From Deltaproteobacteria bacterium (lineage in GTDB: Bacteria > Myxococcota_A > UBA796 > UBA9615), in assembly GCA_023954745.1 (NCBI GenBank), contig JAGSHC010000002.1, forward strand, positions 1 to 64,000: a DNA stretch of 64,000 bases, given 5' to 3'. Of the stretch, positions 19,126 through 26,301 are shown piece by piece (within the stretch, counting starts at the first letter, position 1; every line of letters starts with the position of its first letter). Made by a program: the position numbers and the translations under genes. The notes under the pieces are model-generated. The model searched no databases, was not told the origin of the DNA, and worked only from the letters and a program-made list of their open reading frames with translations.

Positions 19126-20072
19126 TAGAGCCCCGTCGTGTAGGCGAGGGCGTCGGGCCCCCAAGCCGTCAGCAGACGTTGGGAGGTCTCGTCGTCTGGC
19201 ACCAGCGCCAGGACGCTTCCCCCCGCTCCTGCGCCCGTGATCTTGGCCGCGAGCGCGCCGGCGTCGAGAGCAACGGCGATGGCCTCACGGTCGCGCACGT
19301 GCACCACCCCGAGGTGGTCGAGCGCTGCCTGTTGGGCGTTGAGGCCGCTCGCGAGCGTCGAGAGGTCGCCCGCCTCCCAAGCGGAGCGGGATTCCCGCGC
19401 GATGCGCCCCATGTCGGCCACCGTGCGCACCAGGGCCGGCTCCCCCGCGAGCCGCTCGCGCAGCGCGCCCACGATGGCGACGGTCGCTTGTTCGCTCTGA
19501 CGGCGCAACAGCACGAGGCGCAGGGGTGACAGGCCCGCCAAGGCCTCGGTCCCCTTGCCCTTGATGAACCAGAGCGGGCGCTCCATCGCGCTGACCGTGT
19601 GATCGATTCCCGAGGGGTTGCCGTGGAACAAGCGCTCCACCGCCTCCGCCGCCCCGAGCACGCGCGCGCCGTCGTCCTCCTCGCCGTGCCACGCGAGCAA
19701 GGCGCGGGCCATGGCGACGCCGAGAGCCGCCGACGTGCCCATGCCGGAACGAAGTCCCCCCGTGCGCACCGCGACGCGGACCGGAAGCGGCACGGCCACA
19801 TCGAGGGCGGCCGCCGCGGTTCCCAGAGCGCGCGAGACGCTGTCGTGGGCGTCCGGAGGCGCGCCCTCCTCCAGATCGACGGCCAGGGGCCGGTCGGGAT
19901 CGGCACCCTCCGCGAGCACGACGCTGAGGCGAAGGGGCGGCAGGGGCACCGCAATGGCGGGCTCTCCGTACACCACCGAGTGCTCACCCAGCAGGATGAC
20001 CTTGCCGCAGGCCGTGGCGATGGTGGGCCGCACGCCGGGGGAGGTGTCGGGCCGGTCGGAGATCGCGCTCAC
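19125..20072 (-). CDS. mvk: Mevalonate kinase (GHMP kinase)
   Basis: ACGKVILLGEHSVVYGEPAIAVPLP, GGLRSGMGTSAALGVAMARALL, KITGAGAGGSVLAL. Confidence 0.88.
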   Translation of the reverse strand: MSAISDRPDTSPGVRPTIATACGKVILLGEHSVVYGEPAIAVPLPPLRLSVVLAEGADPDRPLAVDLEEGAPPDAHDSVSRALGTAAAALDVAVPLPVRVAVRTGGLRSGMGTSAALGVAMARALLAWHGEEDDGARVLGAAEAVERLFHGNPSGIDHTVSAMERPLWFIKGKGTEALAGLSPLRLVLLRRQSEQATVAIVGALRERLAGEPALVRTVADMGRIARESRSAWEAGDLSTLASGLNAQQAALDHLGVVHVRDREAIAVALDAGALAAKITGAGAGGSVLALVPDDETSQRLLTAWGPDALAYTTGL

Positions 20073-20091: not shown

Positions 20092-21084
20092 CTAGAGCAG
20101 GTGGTCTTCGTGCACGCGGACACCGGGTCCCGCCCGGTTCTCGAGAATGCTCAGACCCGGCATCAACTGCTCGATCCGGGCTCGCACCTCGGGGGCGTCC
20201 CGGCTCTCGCAGAGCACGTGCACGTTGGGACCTGCGTCCAGCGTGAAGAACACCGGCAGACCGTCCTCGCGCCACGCGCGAATGGCGTGGAGCAGCTTCA
20301 GCGTCCCGGGCTGCATGTAGAGCGCGGCGGGCTGCCCGCTCATCATGATGGCGTGCATCTCGAGCGCCTCCTGCTCGACCAGGGCTCCCAAGGTCATGAG
20401 ATCGCGGGCAGCGACTGCGCCCTTGGTGGCGAGCATCCGCGCGGGGAGCAGCTCCTGCCGGGCCGCCATGAAGGGGTGGCGCGTGGCGATCTTGTGCCCT
20501 TCGCTCGAGGAGATCGCCTTGGGGGCCCTGCTGACCAGGACCACGAGGTCGCGCAGGTCCCAGAAGTCCTCTCCCGCGAGCTGGACCGCGGTGCTGTCCG
20601 CGTCGGACGTGCCCGGTAGCCACTCCACGAAGCCGCCGTGAATCGACCGGCACGCACTCCCGCTGCCCCGCCGTGCCCAGCGCGTCATCTCCGTGTCCGA
20701 GGGCATCTCCTCGCCCATCGCGGCGAACGCCGCCGTCGCGAGCGCCGCAAATCCCGACGCGGAGGAGGCGATGCCCGTGCCTGCGGGGAAGCTGTTCATG
20801 GACGCGACCCGCGCCGGCATGCGGTAGTAGTCCGCGCGGATGCGGTCGAGATAGCGGGAGACCCTGAGGCCTCGACCATCGAGCACCCGCTCGCCGTCGA
20901 GATAGATCTCGTCTTGAGAGAGCGTGTCGTCCCAGATCACCGTCGTGGTGGTCGTCGCCTGGGACAGGGTCATGGACAACGACCCATTGAGGGGGATGTT
21001 GTCGGTGAAGTCCCGCTTTCCCCAGTACTTGATGAGCGCGATGTTCGAGCAGGCAGACGCGGTGCCGCGCATCTCACGAGTCAC
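20092..21084 (-). CDS. mvaD: Diphosphomevalonate decarboxylase
   Basis: ACSNIALIKYWGKRDFTDNIPLNGSLSMTLSQ, MNSFPAGTGIASSASGFAALATAA; GTG 21084 or ATG 21072 start. Confidence 0.92.
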   Translation of the reverse strand: MTREMRGTASACSNIALIKYWGKRDFTDNIPLNGSLSMTLSQATTTTTVIWDDTLSQDEIYLDGERVLDGRGLRVSRYLDRIRADYYRMPARVASMNSFPAGTGIASSASGFAALATAAFAAMGEEMPSDTEMTRWARRGSGSACRSIHGGFVEWLPGTSDADSTAVQLAGEDFWDLRDLVVLVSRAPKAISSSEGHKIATRHPFMAARQELLPARMLATKGAVAARDLMTLGALVEQEALEMHAIMMSGQPAALYMQPGTLKLLHAIRAWREDGLPVFFTLDAGPNVHVLCESRDAPEVRARIEQLMPGLSILENRAGPGVRVHEDHLL

Positions 21085-22063
21085 GGGGTACCTCCGTTGA
21101 GACCGGCTCCTCCCGGAGCCCGTGGGGGGTGGGGTTGAGGGACAACAGCTCGAAGCCGACGTCGTCGACGGCAGCCGCGCCCCGCCGGGGCTCGTCCACC
21201 AGAAGAAGCACGCAGTCGCCGCCACCAGCGCCGCACATGCGCGCGCCGAGGACGCCCGGTCGCGACTGGATATGGCGCACCTTGTCGTCGAGGTGCGCCG
21301 GGACCGCTCCGAGCGCGCCGAGGAGGGCATGTCCACGGTTCATGGCATCGCCCAGAGCGAAGGAGTTCCCATGCTCGATGAAGGTAATGCCTTCCTTGGC
21401 GAGCCCCCCGATGCGGTCGTAGATCACCTGGCCGGGAGCGTGGGCCCCTTCAACCACGGAGATCATCTTGGTCGTCGACGCCTTGTTGCCCGTATAGGCA
21501 ACCTGCCAGTGCATGCGATGGGTCGCCAGCTGACGCATCTTCACGAGCTCCCCGCGGCTCCGAGCGTCCTGGAACATCACCGTTCCCCCGAGCAACTGGG
21601 TGGCGACGTCGTACCCACTCGCCCTCCCCTGGAGCGAGCGCTGCAGCTCGTGGGCCTCCGTGAAGAGGCCCTTGAGGGGAGGAAGCGCACCCAGCAGCTG
21701 ACGCACAGCCGCGACGGCCGCCACCGAACTCGCCGAGCTGGAGCCGAGGCCCCAGGTGGGCGGGAACTCGGCGTCGAACCGCAGCGAGAGACCACCCAAT
21801 CGGGGCGCCGCCTCCCGAAGCAGGGGCCAGAGCAGCCGAAGCTCGGGGCGAGGGGCCTGGGCTGCCAACTCCGACAGGGGCAGCTCGATCACTTCGTCGT
21901 CGAGGAGCTCGGGCGCGTCGAATCGAAGGACTCCCCCGCCATCGCGAGCCTCGCAGCGAAGCCGACGGTCGAAGCACATCGCGAGCGAAGGGTGCCCTTG
22001 AAGCACCGCGAACTCCCCGAAGAGCATCAGCTTTCCGGGGGCTGAGAAGGCGGCGGCGGTCAC
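21074..22063 (-). CDS. GHMP kinase, probable phosphomevalonate kinase
   Basis: SAPGKLMLFGEFAVLQGHPSLAM, WGLGSSSASSVAAVAAV, ARMCGAGGGDCVLLLV; GTGA overlap with the HMG-CoA reductase stop; pathway context. Confidence 0.78.
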   Translation of the reverse strand: MTAAAFSAPGKLMLFGEFAVLQGHPSLAMCFDRRLRCEARDGGGVLRFDAPELLDDEVIELPLSELAAQAPRPELRLLWPLLREAAPRLGGLSLRFDAEFPPTWGLGSSSASSVAAVAAVRQLLGALPPLKGLFTEAHELQRSLQGRASGYDVATQLLGGTVMFQDARSRGELVKMRQLATHRMHWQVAYTGNKASTTKMISVVEGAHAPGQVIYDRIGGLAKEGITFIEHGNSFALGDAMNRGHALLGALGAVPAHLDDKVRHIQSRPGVLGARMCGAGGGDCVLLLVDEPRRGAAAVDDVGFELLSLNPTPHGLREEPVSTEVPRDS

Positions 22064-23265
22064 GGCTGGTGGGAGGCCATCTCGAGGTTGCGGCGGTGCA
22101 AGCGCAGGTGGCCTCGGTTGATTCCCTCGGTGGACAGCGCGCGCAGGGCGCCCAGGTTCTGAGCGAGTCCCACGGCGGCGAGCACCCGACCCAGGTCCGA
22201 GGCGTGTTGCACGTCCAACAGGCCGATGGAGAAGCGGGCGACGGGGTGCAGCTTCGTCACTCCACCCACGATGCCCACCTGCACAGGAAGCTCGACGCTG
22301 CCGAGCAGATCCCCGGAGTCCGGGTCCTTCGACCACCGGCTCAGCGACCGGTACCGGCCGTCGCGGGCGGCGTAGGCGTGGGCGCCAGCCTCCATGGCCC
22401 GCCAGTCGTTCCCCGTGGCGAGCACCACGGAGTCCACGCCATTCATGATCCCCTTGTTGTGCGTCGCCGCGCGGTATGGGTCGTAGGTGGCGAAGCGTCC
22501 CGCGGCCACGATGCCGTCGATGACGTCCTCCCCGGTGCGTCCGTCGAAGGCCAGCTCCTTGGCGCGGACCCGGCAGGTCGCCCGCACGCGCCGCCGGTCG
22601 GCCAGGTTGCTGAGAATCCGCAGCCCAACGACCCCGCCGGTGAGCTCCTCGAGGCGCGGCGCCTGCTTCTCGCAGATCGTATTGACGATGTTCGCGCCCA
22701 TTGCGTCGCGGCAGTCCACCAGGAAGTGCACGACCAGCACGTCTCCGTCCCCGTCCGTCTCGGATGCCGGGAACGTCCGCAGCTCCACGCCGACGCAGCC
22801 TCCGCCGATCTTGACGAGGGTGGAGTCGGGGTCGTTCGACGTGGAGATCAGCTCAGGGGTCGCGTCGCGCACCGCCTGCACGGCCTCGTCGATGTCCGGG
22901 ACGGAGTGCAGCTGCACCTGGCCGATCATCGTGTCCTCGATGACCTCGGTGCAGAAGCCTCCGGTGGCCCGGACGAGCCGAGCCATGTTGCTGGCTGCCG
23001 CGACCACGGAGCTCTCCTCCACCACCATCGGCACCAGCATTTCGCGGCCGTCGATGAGGAAGTTCGCAGCCACACCGAAGGGCAGCGTGAAGCCGCCGAT
23101 GACGTTCTCCACGAACGCATCAAGCAGCGACTCCTCGATGGGTGCCGCCAGGGCCTCCAGCTCGAGTTCGACCCCTCCGACCCGAGCGAACTCCGCGACC
23201 ACGCGCCGCCGGTCCGCCACAGAGAGCCGGTAGAAGCCTGCGATCCTGCTGCATCTCTCGCTCAC
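22060..23265 (-). CDS. Hydroxymethylglutaryl-CoA reductase, class II type
   Basis: ENVIGGFTLPFGVAANFLIDGREMLVPMVVEESSVVAAASNMARL; DCRDAMGANIVNTICE; GTG start overlapping the fni stop. Confidence 0.93.
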   Translation of the reverse strand: MSERCSRIAGFYRLSVADRRRVVAEFARVGGVELELEALAAPIEESLLDAFVENVIGGFTLPFGVAANFLIDGREMLVPMVVEESSVVAAASNMARLVRATGGFCTEVIEDTMIGQVQLHSVPDIDEAVQAVRDATPELISTSNDPDSTLVKIGGGCVGVELRTFPASETDGDGDVLVVHFLVDCRDAMGANIVNTICEKQAPRLEELTGGVVGLRILSNLADRRRVRATCRVRAKELAFDGRTGEDVIDGIVAAGRFATYDPYRAATHNKGIMNGVDSVVLATGNDWRAMEAGAHAYAARDGRYRSLSRWSKDPDSGDLLGSVELPVQVGIVGGVTKLHPVARFSIGLLDVQHASDLGRVLAAVGLAQNLGALRALSTEGINRGHLRLHRRNLEMASHQP

Positions 23266-24554
23266 CGAACCTCCTGCGCCTCCACCATGCCCAATGCGCT
23301 CACATCCTCGCAGCCGGAACACACCATCGCGATGCGGACCTCCTCGGTGATCCGGCGTCCCAGGGCGAGGGCTTCGTCGACGGACACGTCGGCAGCGCGG
23401 AAGAACGGCAGCGCCATGCCGGCGACGTCAGCTCCGAGAGCCACGGCCTTGGCGACGTCGAGGCCGCTGCGCACGCCGCCCGTGGACATCAGGGGGAAGT
23501 CGGGCCCCACAGCGTTCCGCACGGAGACCAGCGACTCGGCGGTGGGGATCCCCCAGTCGCGGAACGTGGCGCCCATCTCCTGACGCTGAGGGTCAGCGGC
23601 CCGAAAGCCCTCGATCCAGCCCCACGAGGTACCGCCCGTCCCACCGACGTCGATGGCGTGGGCGCCCAGGTTCCGCAGCTGCACCGCCGTCCCTGCGGAG
23701 ATCCCGCAGCCCGTCTCCTTGATGATGACCGGAACGTCGAGCCCGGCGATGAGCGCCTCCACCTTGCCGAGCAGCCCGCTCCAGTCGCGATCGCCTTCCG
23801 GCTGCACCATCTCCTGGAGCACGTTCAGGTGCACGGCCATCGCGTCGGCTTGCACGTCGGCCACCAAACGCTTCACATCATCGATGGTGACGCCGTAGTT
23901 GAGCTGCACCGCCCCGATGTTCCCAATGAGCAGGATGTCTGGCGCCACATCGCGCACGACAAAGGTGGGGAGCAGATCGGGACGCTCCACCATCGCCCGC
24001 TGGGAGCCGAGCCCCATGCCGAGACCCAGCTCCTGACAGACAGTGGCCAGGCGTCGATTCACCGTGCCGGCCCGCTCGGAGCCGCCGGTCATCCCCGCCA
24101 TGAGGAACGGGGCCGACAGCGGCTTGCCGAGGAAGGTGGTGGTCAGATCCACCGCATCCGCGTCGAGCTCGGGGAGCGCGTCGTGCGGCAGCCTCCACCG
24201 GTGCCAGCCAGCGCGAGTCTCTGCGGACTCCACATCCTTCGTGGCCACGATGTTGAGGTGAGCCGACTTGCGCAGAGAGCTGATGTGCCCGACGAGCTTC
24301 TCCCGGCCGGCGCCGAGGAACTCCAGGACCTCCAACTCGTAGCGGCGTCCCTCCGTCGAGACGACGCGGGCGCGGGCCGACACCGACAGGCTCTCGCTGC
24401 AAAGCAACGTGATGCCCTCCTCTACCTCGAGCTTGCTGCCCTTGGGCATGTCCACGAACAAGCGCTGGAGGGAAAGGTGCTGGCATAGACCGATGCGCCC
24501 ACCCAGCCTGACTGGGAGGTATCCGTCGAGCTTGATGAGGGAGTCTGCGCTCAT
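23262..24554 (-). CDS. fni: Type 2 isopentenyl-diphosphate delta-isomerase with ~94-aa N-terminal extension
   Basis: Core RKSAHLNIVATKDVES...APFLMAGMTGGSERAGTVNRRLA..GLGMGLGSQRAMVE..VDVGGTGGTSWGWIEGFRA; start fixed by ATGA overlap with the lnt stop. Confidence 0.9.
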   Translation of the reverse strand: MSADSLIKLDGYLPVRLGGRIGLCQHLSLQRLFVDMPKGSKLEVEEGITLLCSESLSVSARARVVSTEGRRYELEVLEFLGAGREKLVGHISSLRKSAHLNIVATKDVESAETRAGWHRWRLPHDALPELDADAVDLTTTFLGKPLSAPFLMAGMTGGSERAGTVNRRLATVCQELGLGMGLGSQRAMVERPDLLPTFVVRDVAPDILLIGNIGAVQLNYGVTIDDVKRLVADVQADAMAVHLNVLQEMVQPEGDRDWSGLLGKVEALIAGLDVPVIIKETGCGISAGTAVQLRNLGAHAIDVGGTGGTSWGWIEGFRAADPQRQEMGATFRDWGIPTAESLVSVRNAVGPDFPLMSTGGVRSGLDVAKAVALGADVAGMALPFFRAADVSVDEALALGRRITEEVRIAMVCSGCEDVSALGMVEAQEVR

Positions 24555-26209
24555 CCCATGGGGCCCAATCCGCCGAAGACGATGACCGCAGTCACTGCGG
24601 CGCCGAACAGGAAGATTGCCAGGGGCCACAGCTCCCGCCACTTGGTGGCCGGCTCAACCCGGCGACGAGCCACCGTCAGCAGCCCGGAGATCGCGAAGAC
24701 ACAAAGCCACGCGAGCCAATCGCCCCAGGCGGTGTACAGCGACGGCATGCGCACCAGCTTCACGTCCTCGATGAGGGCCTCTCGCGAGAAGAGCCCGCTC
24801 TTGGAGAGGAAGCGTCCGCGCGCGTCGGCGAACGCCGAGATCCCGGTGGTGGCCGAGCGCGCCGTCGGGACACCGTTCTGGGCCGACTGAAGCACGACGA
24901 GCATCAAGAACTGATGAGGGCACGCTGTGTCGCCGTACCAGGCGTCGTAGGAGACGTTCACCAGCAGGTTCGCTCCGTCCTTCACCGCGCGGCGGACGTA
25001 CCTCGACAGGATGGCCTCGTAGCAAATGAGGAACGTGAACTTCACGTCCTCCAGGGCCTCGAAGACGATGATCCCGTCGCCGGGCTGGTAGTTGCCGACT
25101 CCCTGGATCTTCTTGAGCACCGGGAAGAGGGACGCGCCGGGCATGTACTCACCGAAGGGCAGGAGCACGTTCTTGTCGTAGCGGCGGTCGGTTTGCGCGT
25201 CGCCGTACAGACGGAAGGCGGAGTTGAACCACTGCCTGCGGCCGTCCTCGCCCTTCTTGTTGGAGCTGCCTCCGGTCCAGATCTCCTTGCCCGTGTCAGC
25301 CACGAACTTGCGCACCTTGAGGTTCCGCGGCCAGTCGGGCCGGCCCTGCAGCGCACCTTCGGGGAGGATGAAGGCGTCGATCTCGGGATCCCGCGCCAGG
25401 GTGTCCTTGAGCAGCCGGACCTGGTCGTCGGCGATGGCCGTCTTGCTGGAGCGCATCATCGCGCGGCGCTTGAAGACGTCCTGATTGCTCTGAATGGAGG
25501 CGAGGCGCACCGTCGGCGCGGTCTCCTCGGCGGCATCGATGGCCCGCAGGCGCAGCTGGCAGTACCCCAGGCTGAGGAGCAGCGCCGCGACCAACACGAT
25601 GGCCCCGCGGCGAGTGCCCGCCTCGAGGGACGGCGCCGACTCCGGGTTGGCTCGCCGCTCCAGGAAGTGACTGAGGAGCCCGAGGCCCACTGCGTTGCTG
25701 AGCATCACCAGCATCGACACACCGGCCACGCCCGTGAGGGCGGTGATGAGGAAGATCCAGGGCTGCTGGTACCAGGCCACTCCCTGGAAGTACGGGAAGA
25801 GCTGGGGAGTCAGGTACTCGCACGCGCAGAACCAGGCGGCGATGGCGACCGGCCACCAGACCCCGCTGAGCCGGCGCACGCGCCCGAATCCCCAGGCAAA
25901 CACGCCGACGTAGAACCCGAACAGCCCCGAGAACGCCAGCAAGATGAGGATGGCGACGGCCCAGGGCAGGTTCGAGAAGACCGTGATGGTGTCCACGAGC
26001 CAGTAGAAGATCGCGGCCTGCCCCGCCGTCCCGCAGAGCCACCCGTAGCGGAATGCCCGCCCTCCCTCGAGGTGACTGAACGCCCAGAACGCCGGGACCC
26101 ACGACAGCGGGTGGAGCCACACCCAACTCGCGGGAGCCGAGATCATCGCCTGCGTGATGCCGGAGAAGACCACGGCGAGGAGCAGGAGCGCTGGGTGGGG
26201 AGTTCGCAT
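24551..26209 (-). CDS. lnt: Apolipoprotein N-acyltransferase
   Basis: N-terminal multi-TM region; nitrilase-like domain FILPEGALQG, DKNVLLPFGEYMPG, FLICYEAILSRYVR. Confidence 0.88.
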   Translation of the reverse strand: MRTPHPALLLLAVVFSGITQAMISAPASWVWLHPLSWVPAFWAFSHLEGGRAFRYGWLCGTAGQAAIFYWLVDTITVFSNLPWAVAILILLAFSGLFGFYVGVFAWGFGRVRRLSGVWWPVAIAAWFCACEYLTPQLFPYFQGVAWYQQPWIFLITALTGVAGVSMLVMLSNAVGLGLLSHFLERRANPESAPSLEAGTRRGAIVLVAALLLSLGYCQLRLRAIDAAEETAPTVRLASIQSNQDVFKRRAMMRSSKTAIADDQVRLLKDTLARDPEIDAFILPEGALQGRPDWPRNLKVRKFVADTGKEIWTGGSSNKKGEDGRRQWFNSAFRLYGDAQTDRRYDKNVLLPFGEYMPGASLFPVLKKIQGVGNYQPGDGIIVFEALEDVKFTFLICYEAILSRYVRRAVKDGANLLVNVSYDAWYGDTACPHQFLMLVVLQSAQNGVPTARSATTGISAFADARGRFLSKSGLFSREALIEDVKLVRMPSLYTAWGDWLAWLCVFAISGLLTVARRRVEPATKWRELWPLAIFLFGAAVTAVIVFGGLGPMG

Positions 26210-26301
26210 GGGTGTCGCGCGCGGATCTAGCACGCTGCGCCGGGCGAGGCCTCTCGGTCCACCCCCTTGACGCGCGCCCACCGGCGACAAACCCTTCCCC
26301 C

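Follow-up and report, generated by a model that had tools for sequence, protein, structure and literature searches.

The gene studied here lies within a stretch of 64,000 nucleotides from a deltaproteobacterial genome, the whole of which we call the window, and encodes on the reverse strand a type 2 isopentenyl-diphosphate (IPP) isomerase, Fni, of 430 amino acids (23262-24554, stop codon included), whose first 94 residues form a PilZ-like domain. All the neighbouring genes described below are on the same strand. Upstream is an open reading frame for the apolipoprotein N-acyltransferase Lnt (24551-26290, taken from a putative TTG start; TIGR00546, 217.7 bits), and HMG-CoA reductase is the next gene downstream (22063-23262; TIGR00532, 376.4 bits). 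It is followed by a second GHMP kinase (21077-22072), diphosphomevalonate decarboxylase (20095-21123; TIGR01240, 244.4 bits) and mevalonate kinase (19128-20072; TIGR00549, 178.9 bits, above the cut-off). The second GHMP kinase matches weakly, below the cut-offs for both mevalonate kinase (TIGR00549) and phosphomevalonate kinase, and is probably the phosphomevalonate kinase of the operon, as its place there suggests. The order lnt-fni-HMGR-GHMP-MVD-MVK is common to the window and two related loci (L007 and L008), while a third (L009) has the same order from fni onwards. The genome has no TIGR02150 match for the type 1 isomerase Idi1 and no TIGR00243 match for Dxr of the MEP pathway, and the fused fni is its only isomerase match in the phylum- and order-sample searches; hence the fused enzyme is probably the only IPP isomerase, acting on the only route to IPP.

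The isomerase core is matched by TIGR02151 over residues 95-423 (377.7 bits; curated cut-off 281.3), and because this match begins at residue 95 no part of the extension falls within the isomerase model. When the protein is aligned with phmmer to 2zru, R95, K96, R186, H242 and Q247 correspond to Arg7, Lys8, Arg98, His155 and Gln160 of the S. shibatae enzyme, and the RKSAH motif is placed at R95-H99 (24258-24272). The full-length structural model (pLDDT 92.4, pTM 0.85) has S. shibatae IDI-2 as its top match in the PDB. Judged from its sequence, the protein is a type 2 IPP isomerase with a predicted FMN/Mg-dependent activity.

The extension comprises 94 codons (24273-24554), and the translation indeed places 94 residues before R95-K96-S-A-H99, as the original prediction had stated for the region ahead of RKxxH, although the boundary given there, 24271, reaches two bases too far. 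The start was said to be fixed by an overlap with lnt, and this is what we see: the ATG of fni (24554-24552) overlaps the TGA stop of lnt (24553-24551) as ATGA. GC contents at the three codon positions are 0.65/0.42/0.89 in the extension and 0.72/0.48/0.87 in the core, so that the coding signature runs through the extension, and comparison with a congeneric genome gives dN/dS of about 0.47 for the extension and 0.20 for the core. By these measures the extension is translated and constrained, less tightly than the enzyme core.

We searched a sample of the phylum (379 genomes), the order (seven genomes), GTDB contigs and the relatives of one hit for the same arrangement. Including the window's own genome, seven genomes have a homologous extension at this position: five of one family (G000, G248, G133, G113 and G253), one more of the same order (G004) and one metagenome-assembled genome titled Planctomycetota (G379). 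Their loci are L007/L088 (G248), L089 (G133), L008/L090 (G113), L009/L091 (G004), L117 (G253) and L010 (G379). The finding of the homologous extension in six further, independently assembled genomes excludes a sequencing error that merged two genes, a doubt raised with the original prediction; the broader suggestion that a mis-called start, a frameshift or an assembly join created the fusion is likewise refuted by the homologues, and runs against the coding signature and the ATGA overlap. No evidence in its support was found, and we regard it as practically out of the question. No other fusion was seen among the 379 phylum genomes, where the remaining matches start near residue 93-95. Seven phylum matches reached, or appeared to reach, into the extension, and on reading proved to be without a PilZ-like domain; the apparent reach of L109 crosses a TAG stop and represents read-through. 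A search with the PilZ profile found no stand-alone PilZ-like gene next to an unfused fni in the fetched loci. In a further genome of the same family (G258), whose assembly is 73% complete, no isomerase was found.

The isomerase cores that bear the homologous extension form one clade (support 99/97), which is recovered in a larger tree with support 100/95; the one row there without a label, L141, duplicates the gene of L010 itself. Their extensions are only 29-51% identical to that of the window, and the residues invariant in the family are few (L9, P14, G19, L29, D35, V64, R71, L87 and S92 in the A2 alignment). More divergent PilZ-like extensions with the same ending before RK occur in two other genomes, G380 (L144) and G462 (L143); that of L144 matches Pfam PilZ below the threshold (16.2 bits, E 0.013), and that of L143 has no match. 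A single origin for all eight extension-bearing rows of the tree, with these two included, is weakly disfavoured (p-AU 0.045), and the two extensions may reflect either an independent gain or losses in the lineages between. The L010 isomerase groups with those of the window's order, which belongs to Myxococcota by the record titles of relatives, despite the Planctomycetota title of its own record, a position that may be due to lateral transfer or to a mis-binned contig; within 5 kb of it there is no lnt and none of the window's mevalonate genes.

Elsewhere the PilZ domain is a sensor of the signal molecule c-di-GMP, and it is best known from proteins of motility, secretion and polysaccharide synthesis. 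Four lines of evidence agree in assigning the extension to this domain. Firstly, when a profile of the seven extensions was searched against 71 genomes of the class, the best hits other than the extensions themselves were seven proteins (E 9e-6 to 5e-3); PF07238 is present in six, and the seventh (L130) is similar in pattern but matches nothing in Pfam. Secondly, comparison by hhalign with four of the PilZ proteins so found gave a probability of 96.0 (E 4.6e-9, 79 columns), pairing 'GLCQHLSLQRLFVDMP' with 'GFTQNVSEGGVFVAMP'. Thirdly, the L010 domain by itself reaches 23.5 bits on PF07238, above the cut-off of 22.5; within the whole protein it stays below this, at 19.1 bits. Fourthly, an AlphaFold2 model from the seven sequences (pLDDT 90.1) is ordered, where disorder would have spoken against the original prediction, and has six strands (7-17, 20-27, 31-35, 45-51, 57-68 and 71-79) and a C-terminal helix from residue 83. 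Foldseek leads with PilZ structures for this model, among them 5y4r and 5xly (MapZ complexes) and 4q63 (Lpg0364, TM 0.74), as well as 5vx6 (MotI), 1ywu (PA4608), 4rt0 (Alg44) and 4i86 (cellulose synthase). We therefore identify the extension, by sequence comparison and modelled fold, as a PilZ domain, and the PilZ-like beta barrel first read from the letters is thereby supported. It could instead be another small beta barrel that has converged on the PilZ pattern, since the window sequence alone has no Pfam PilZ match up to E 10 with filters on (a matter of the detection threshold and not a property of the domain), the extension alone gives no meaningful match to Pfam or NCBIfam, and a search of PDB sequences with the family profile brings up no PilZ chain; but the four approaches above all return PilZ, and such convergence seems very improbable. 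Matches to FapR and S-layer entries of the PDB (E 0.076 and above) were weak and taken as chance. Two proteins met in these searches may be mentioned: a 327-residue protein in G137 (L130:871-1851, minus strand), which is similar to the extension at its N-terminus (about 21-23 bits) and probably has there another degenerate PilZ domain, and a gene in G147 (L131:691-2874, plus strand) in which a PilZ domain (23.2 bits) and a region resembling a methyltransferase stand in a single open frame.

The c-di-GMP motifs had been called degenerate, and alignment with canonical NxSxxG PilZ proteins (L127, L128, L129 and L133) bears this out. Where L127 has R24xxxR28 and N50xS52xxG55, the window domain has D4xxxK8 (residues 4-8, 24531-24545) and H26xS28xxR31 (within residues 26-33, H26-L-S28-L-Q-R31-L-F, which take in the strand that follows; 24456-24479). 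Neither the RxxxR nor the [D/N]xSxxG consensus is thus present, and of the motif residues only the Ser is kept, the first Arg being replaced by Asp, D/N by His and Gly by Arg. L010 retains R4-P-L-T-R8 together with a second motif of the form HxSxxS, whereas L008 and L089 have lost both the Ser and the second Arg. Owing to the motif loss, the window protein is unlikely to bind c-di-GMP in the canonical way; L010 may still do so.

These differences bear on whether the domain is still a receptor for c-di-GMP or a related nucleotide, so that the signal would directly set isoprenoid flux through the isomerase. With 14 GGDEF and six Pfam PilZ matches in the genome, c-di-GMP is probably made in the cell and signalling is likely present. 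Moreover, the second Arg, a Lys in the window, is Arg in four of the seven aligned homologous domains, the motif Ser is kept in five of the seven, and L010 has both arginines. Set against the loss of most motif residues in the window protein and their further decay in L008 and L089, this leaves a direct receptor unlikely. One GGDEF gene (G000:C373:69218-69688, minus strand) shares its contig with the fused isomerase and lies about 5 kb past the right end of the window.

The way in which the two parts are joined suggests another role. In the full-length monomer model, one helix (residues 83-105, 24240-24308) contains both the C-terminal helix of the PilZ domain and RKSAH, with junction pLDDT of about 80-86. 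Arg7 and Lys8 of the S. shibatae enzyme, the counterparts of R95 and K96, are listed among the substrate-proximal residues in a review, where alanine mutants of these residues mostly have about 1-35% of the catalytic efficiency (PMC3509576). As the modelled helix is shared with R95-K96, movement of the barrel should be transmitted to the substrate site and might change activity.

The same facts may be read as those of a structural add-on, there to stabilise the enzyme or its oligomer, with no regulatory input. Its faster evolution than the core, its few invariant residues and the loss of the c-di-GMP motif are all in keeping with such a role; yet the same junction is found in seven genomes in spite of the low identity of the domains, and the domain immediately precedes residues that contact the substrate. 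We consider a purely structural role rather unlikely, with slightly more in its favour than a direct nucleotide receptor.

We lean, with modest confidence, towards a non-canonical PilZ module that was joined to the enzyme in the ancestor of the order and uses its last helix to regulate or organise the isomerase. This regulatory module would agree with the shared junction in seven genomes of one clade, the PilZ identity, the ordered model with its continuous helix, the alignment of R95 and K96, the motif loss, the lack of Idi1 and Dxr matches and the adjoining mevalonate genes. The more rapid change of the extension, which fits a mostly structural role too, and the lack of a Pfam PilZ match of the window sequence's own count against it, as does the fact that the continuous helix comes from a monomer prediction. 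The proposed course is that a PilZ domain was joined in frame ahead of a type 2 IPP isomerase in that ancestor, and that the position of the junction has not changed since the fusion. The fold would have stayed intact, with the residues that hold c-di-GMP largely lost in the window species, and the last helix of the domain would run unbroken into R95-K96, residues that border the substrate site in enzymes of this family. If the barrel bound a partner protein or some other ligand, or made a contact within the oligomer, the helix might shift and so alter substrate binding or subunit assembly. As a more specific version, which we think improbable, the domain would bind c-di-GMP, another nucleotide or a prenyl compound, or a partner, and by moving the R95-K96 helix switch the isomerase, with an ancestral nucleotide response kept in more canonical homologues, of which L010 would be one and the divergent extension of L144 perhaps another.

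The fusion offers a chance to test directly what a signalling-type domain does within the core isoprenoid metabolism of a bacterium with the mevalonate pathway, since the domain is fixed on the only IPP isomerase found, beside the substrate site. The series from L010, with its RxxxR, to the window protein would trace how a PilZ domain loses its ligand while staying in place. If the switch proposed above is true, a second messenger or a partner would directly control an isoprenoid branch point.

Both halves of the protein belong to known kinds. A PilZ domain combined with an isoprenoid enzyme was met in none of the open-access texts searched; in this limited search, no paper on PilZ and IPP isomerase or mevalonate reported such a fusion in its title or abstract. 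The catalytic core is all shared with other Fni/IDI-2 enzymes of TIGR02151 (S. shibatae 2zrw, T. thermophilus 1vcg and B. subtilis 1p0k), including the RKxxH, HLNxxQE and QPEG motifs and the TIM-barrel fold, but the RK motif comes at residue 6-7 in the S. shibatae and T. thermophilus enzymes and at R95 in the window protein, and among the solved members matched none extends over residues 1-86 of the window protein. With the PF07238 proteins (MapZ, PA4608, Lpg0364 4q63, MotI, Alg44 and BcsA) the window domain has in common the six-stranded barrel and C-terminal helix, and the strand order and NxSxxG region can be aligned; unlike them, it has degenerate c-di-GMP motifs and is joined to an isoprenoid enzyme. 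The PilZ-DnaK chaperones CsdK1 and CsdK2 of Myxococcus xanthus are similar in having a PilZ domain at the N-terminus of a protein that is ordinary in other respects, and CsdK1, which is without half of the binding motif, is also incomplete in this respect (PMC10313047); these are chaperones, however, and the window protein is a metabolic enzyme. XCC6012 likewise has a PilZ fold outside the canonical c-di-GMP-binding type, and the same paper cites further PilZ proteins whose binding can hardly be detected and which work by way of partners (PMC3131395). It resembles the window domain in being a non-canonical PilZ, but is a stand-alone tetramer with extra helices, whereas the window domain is fused to its enzyme.
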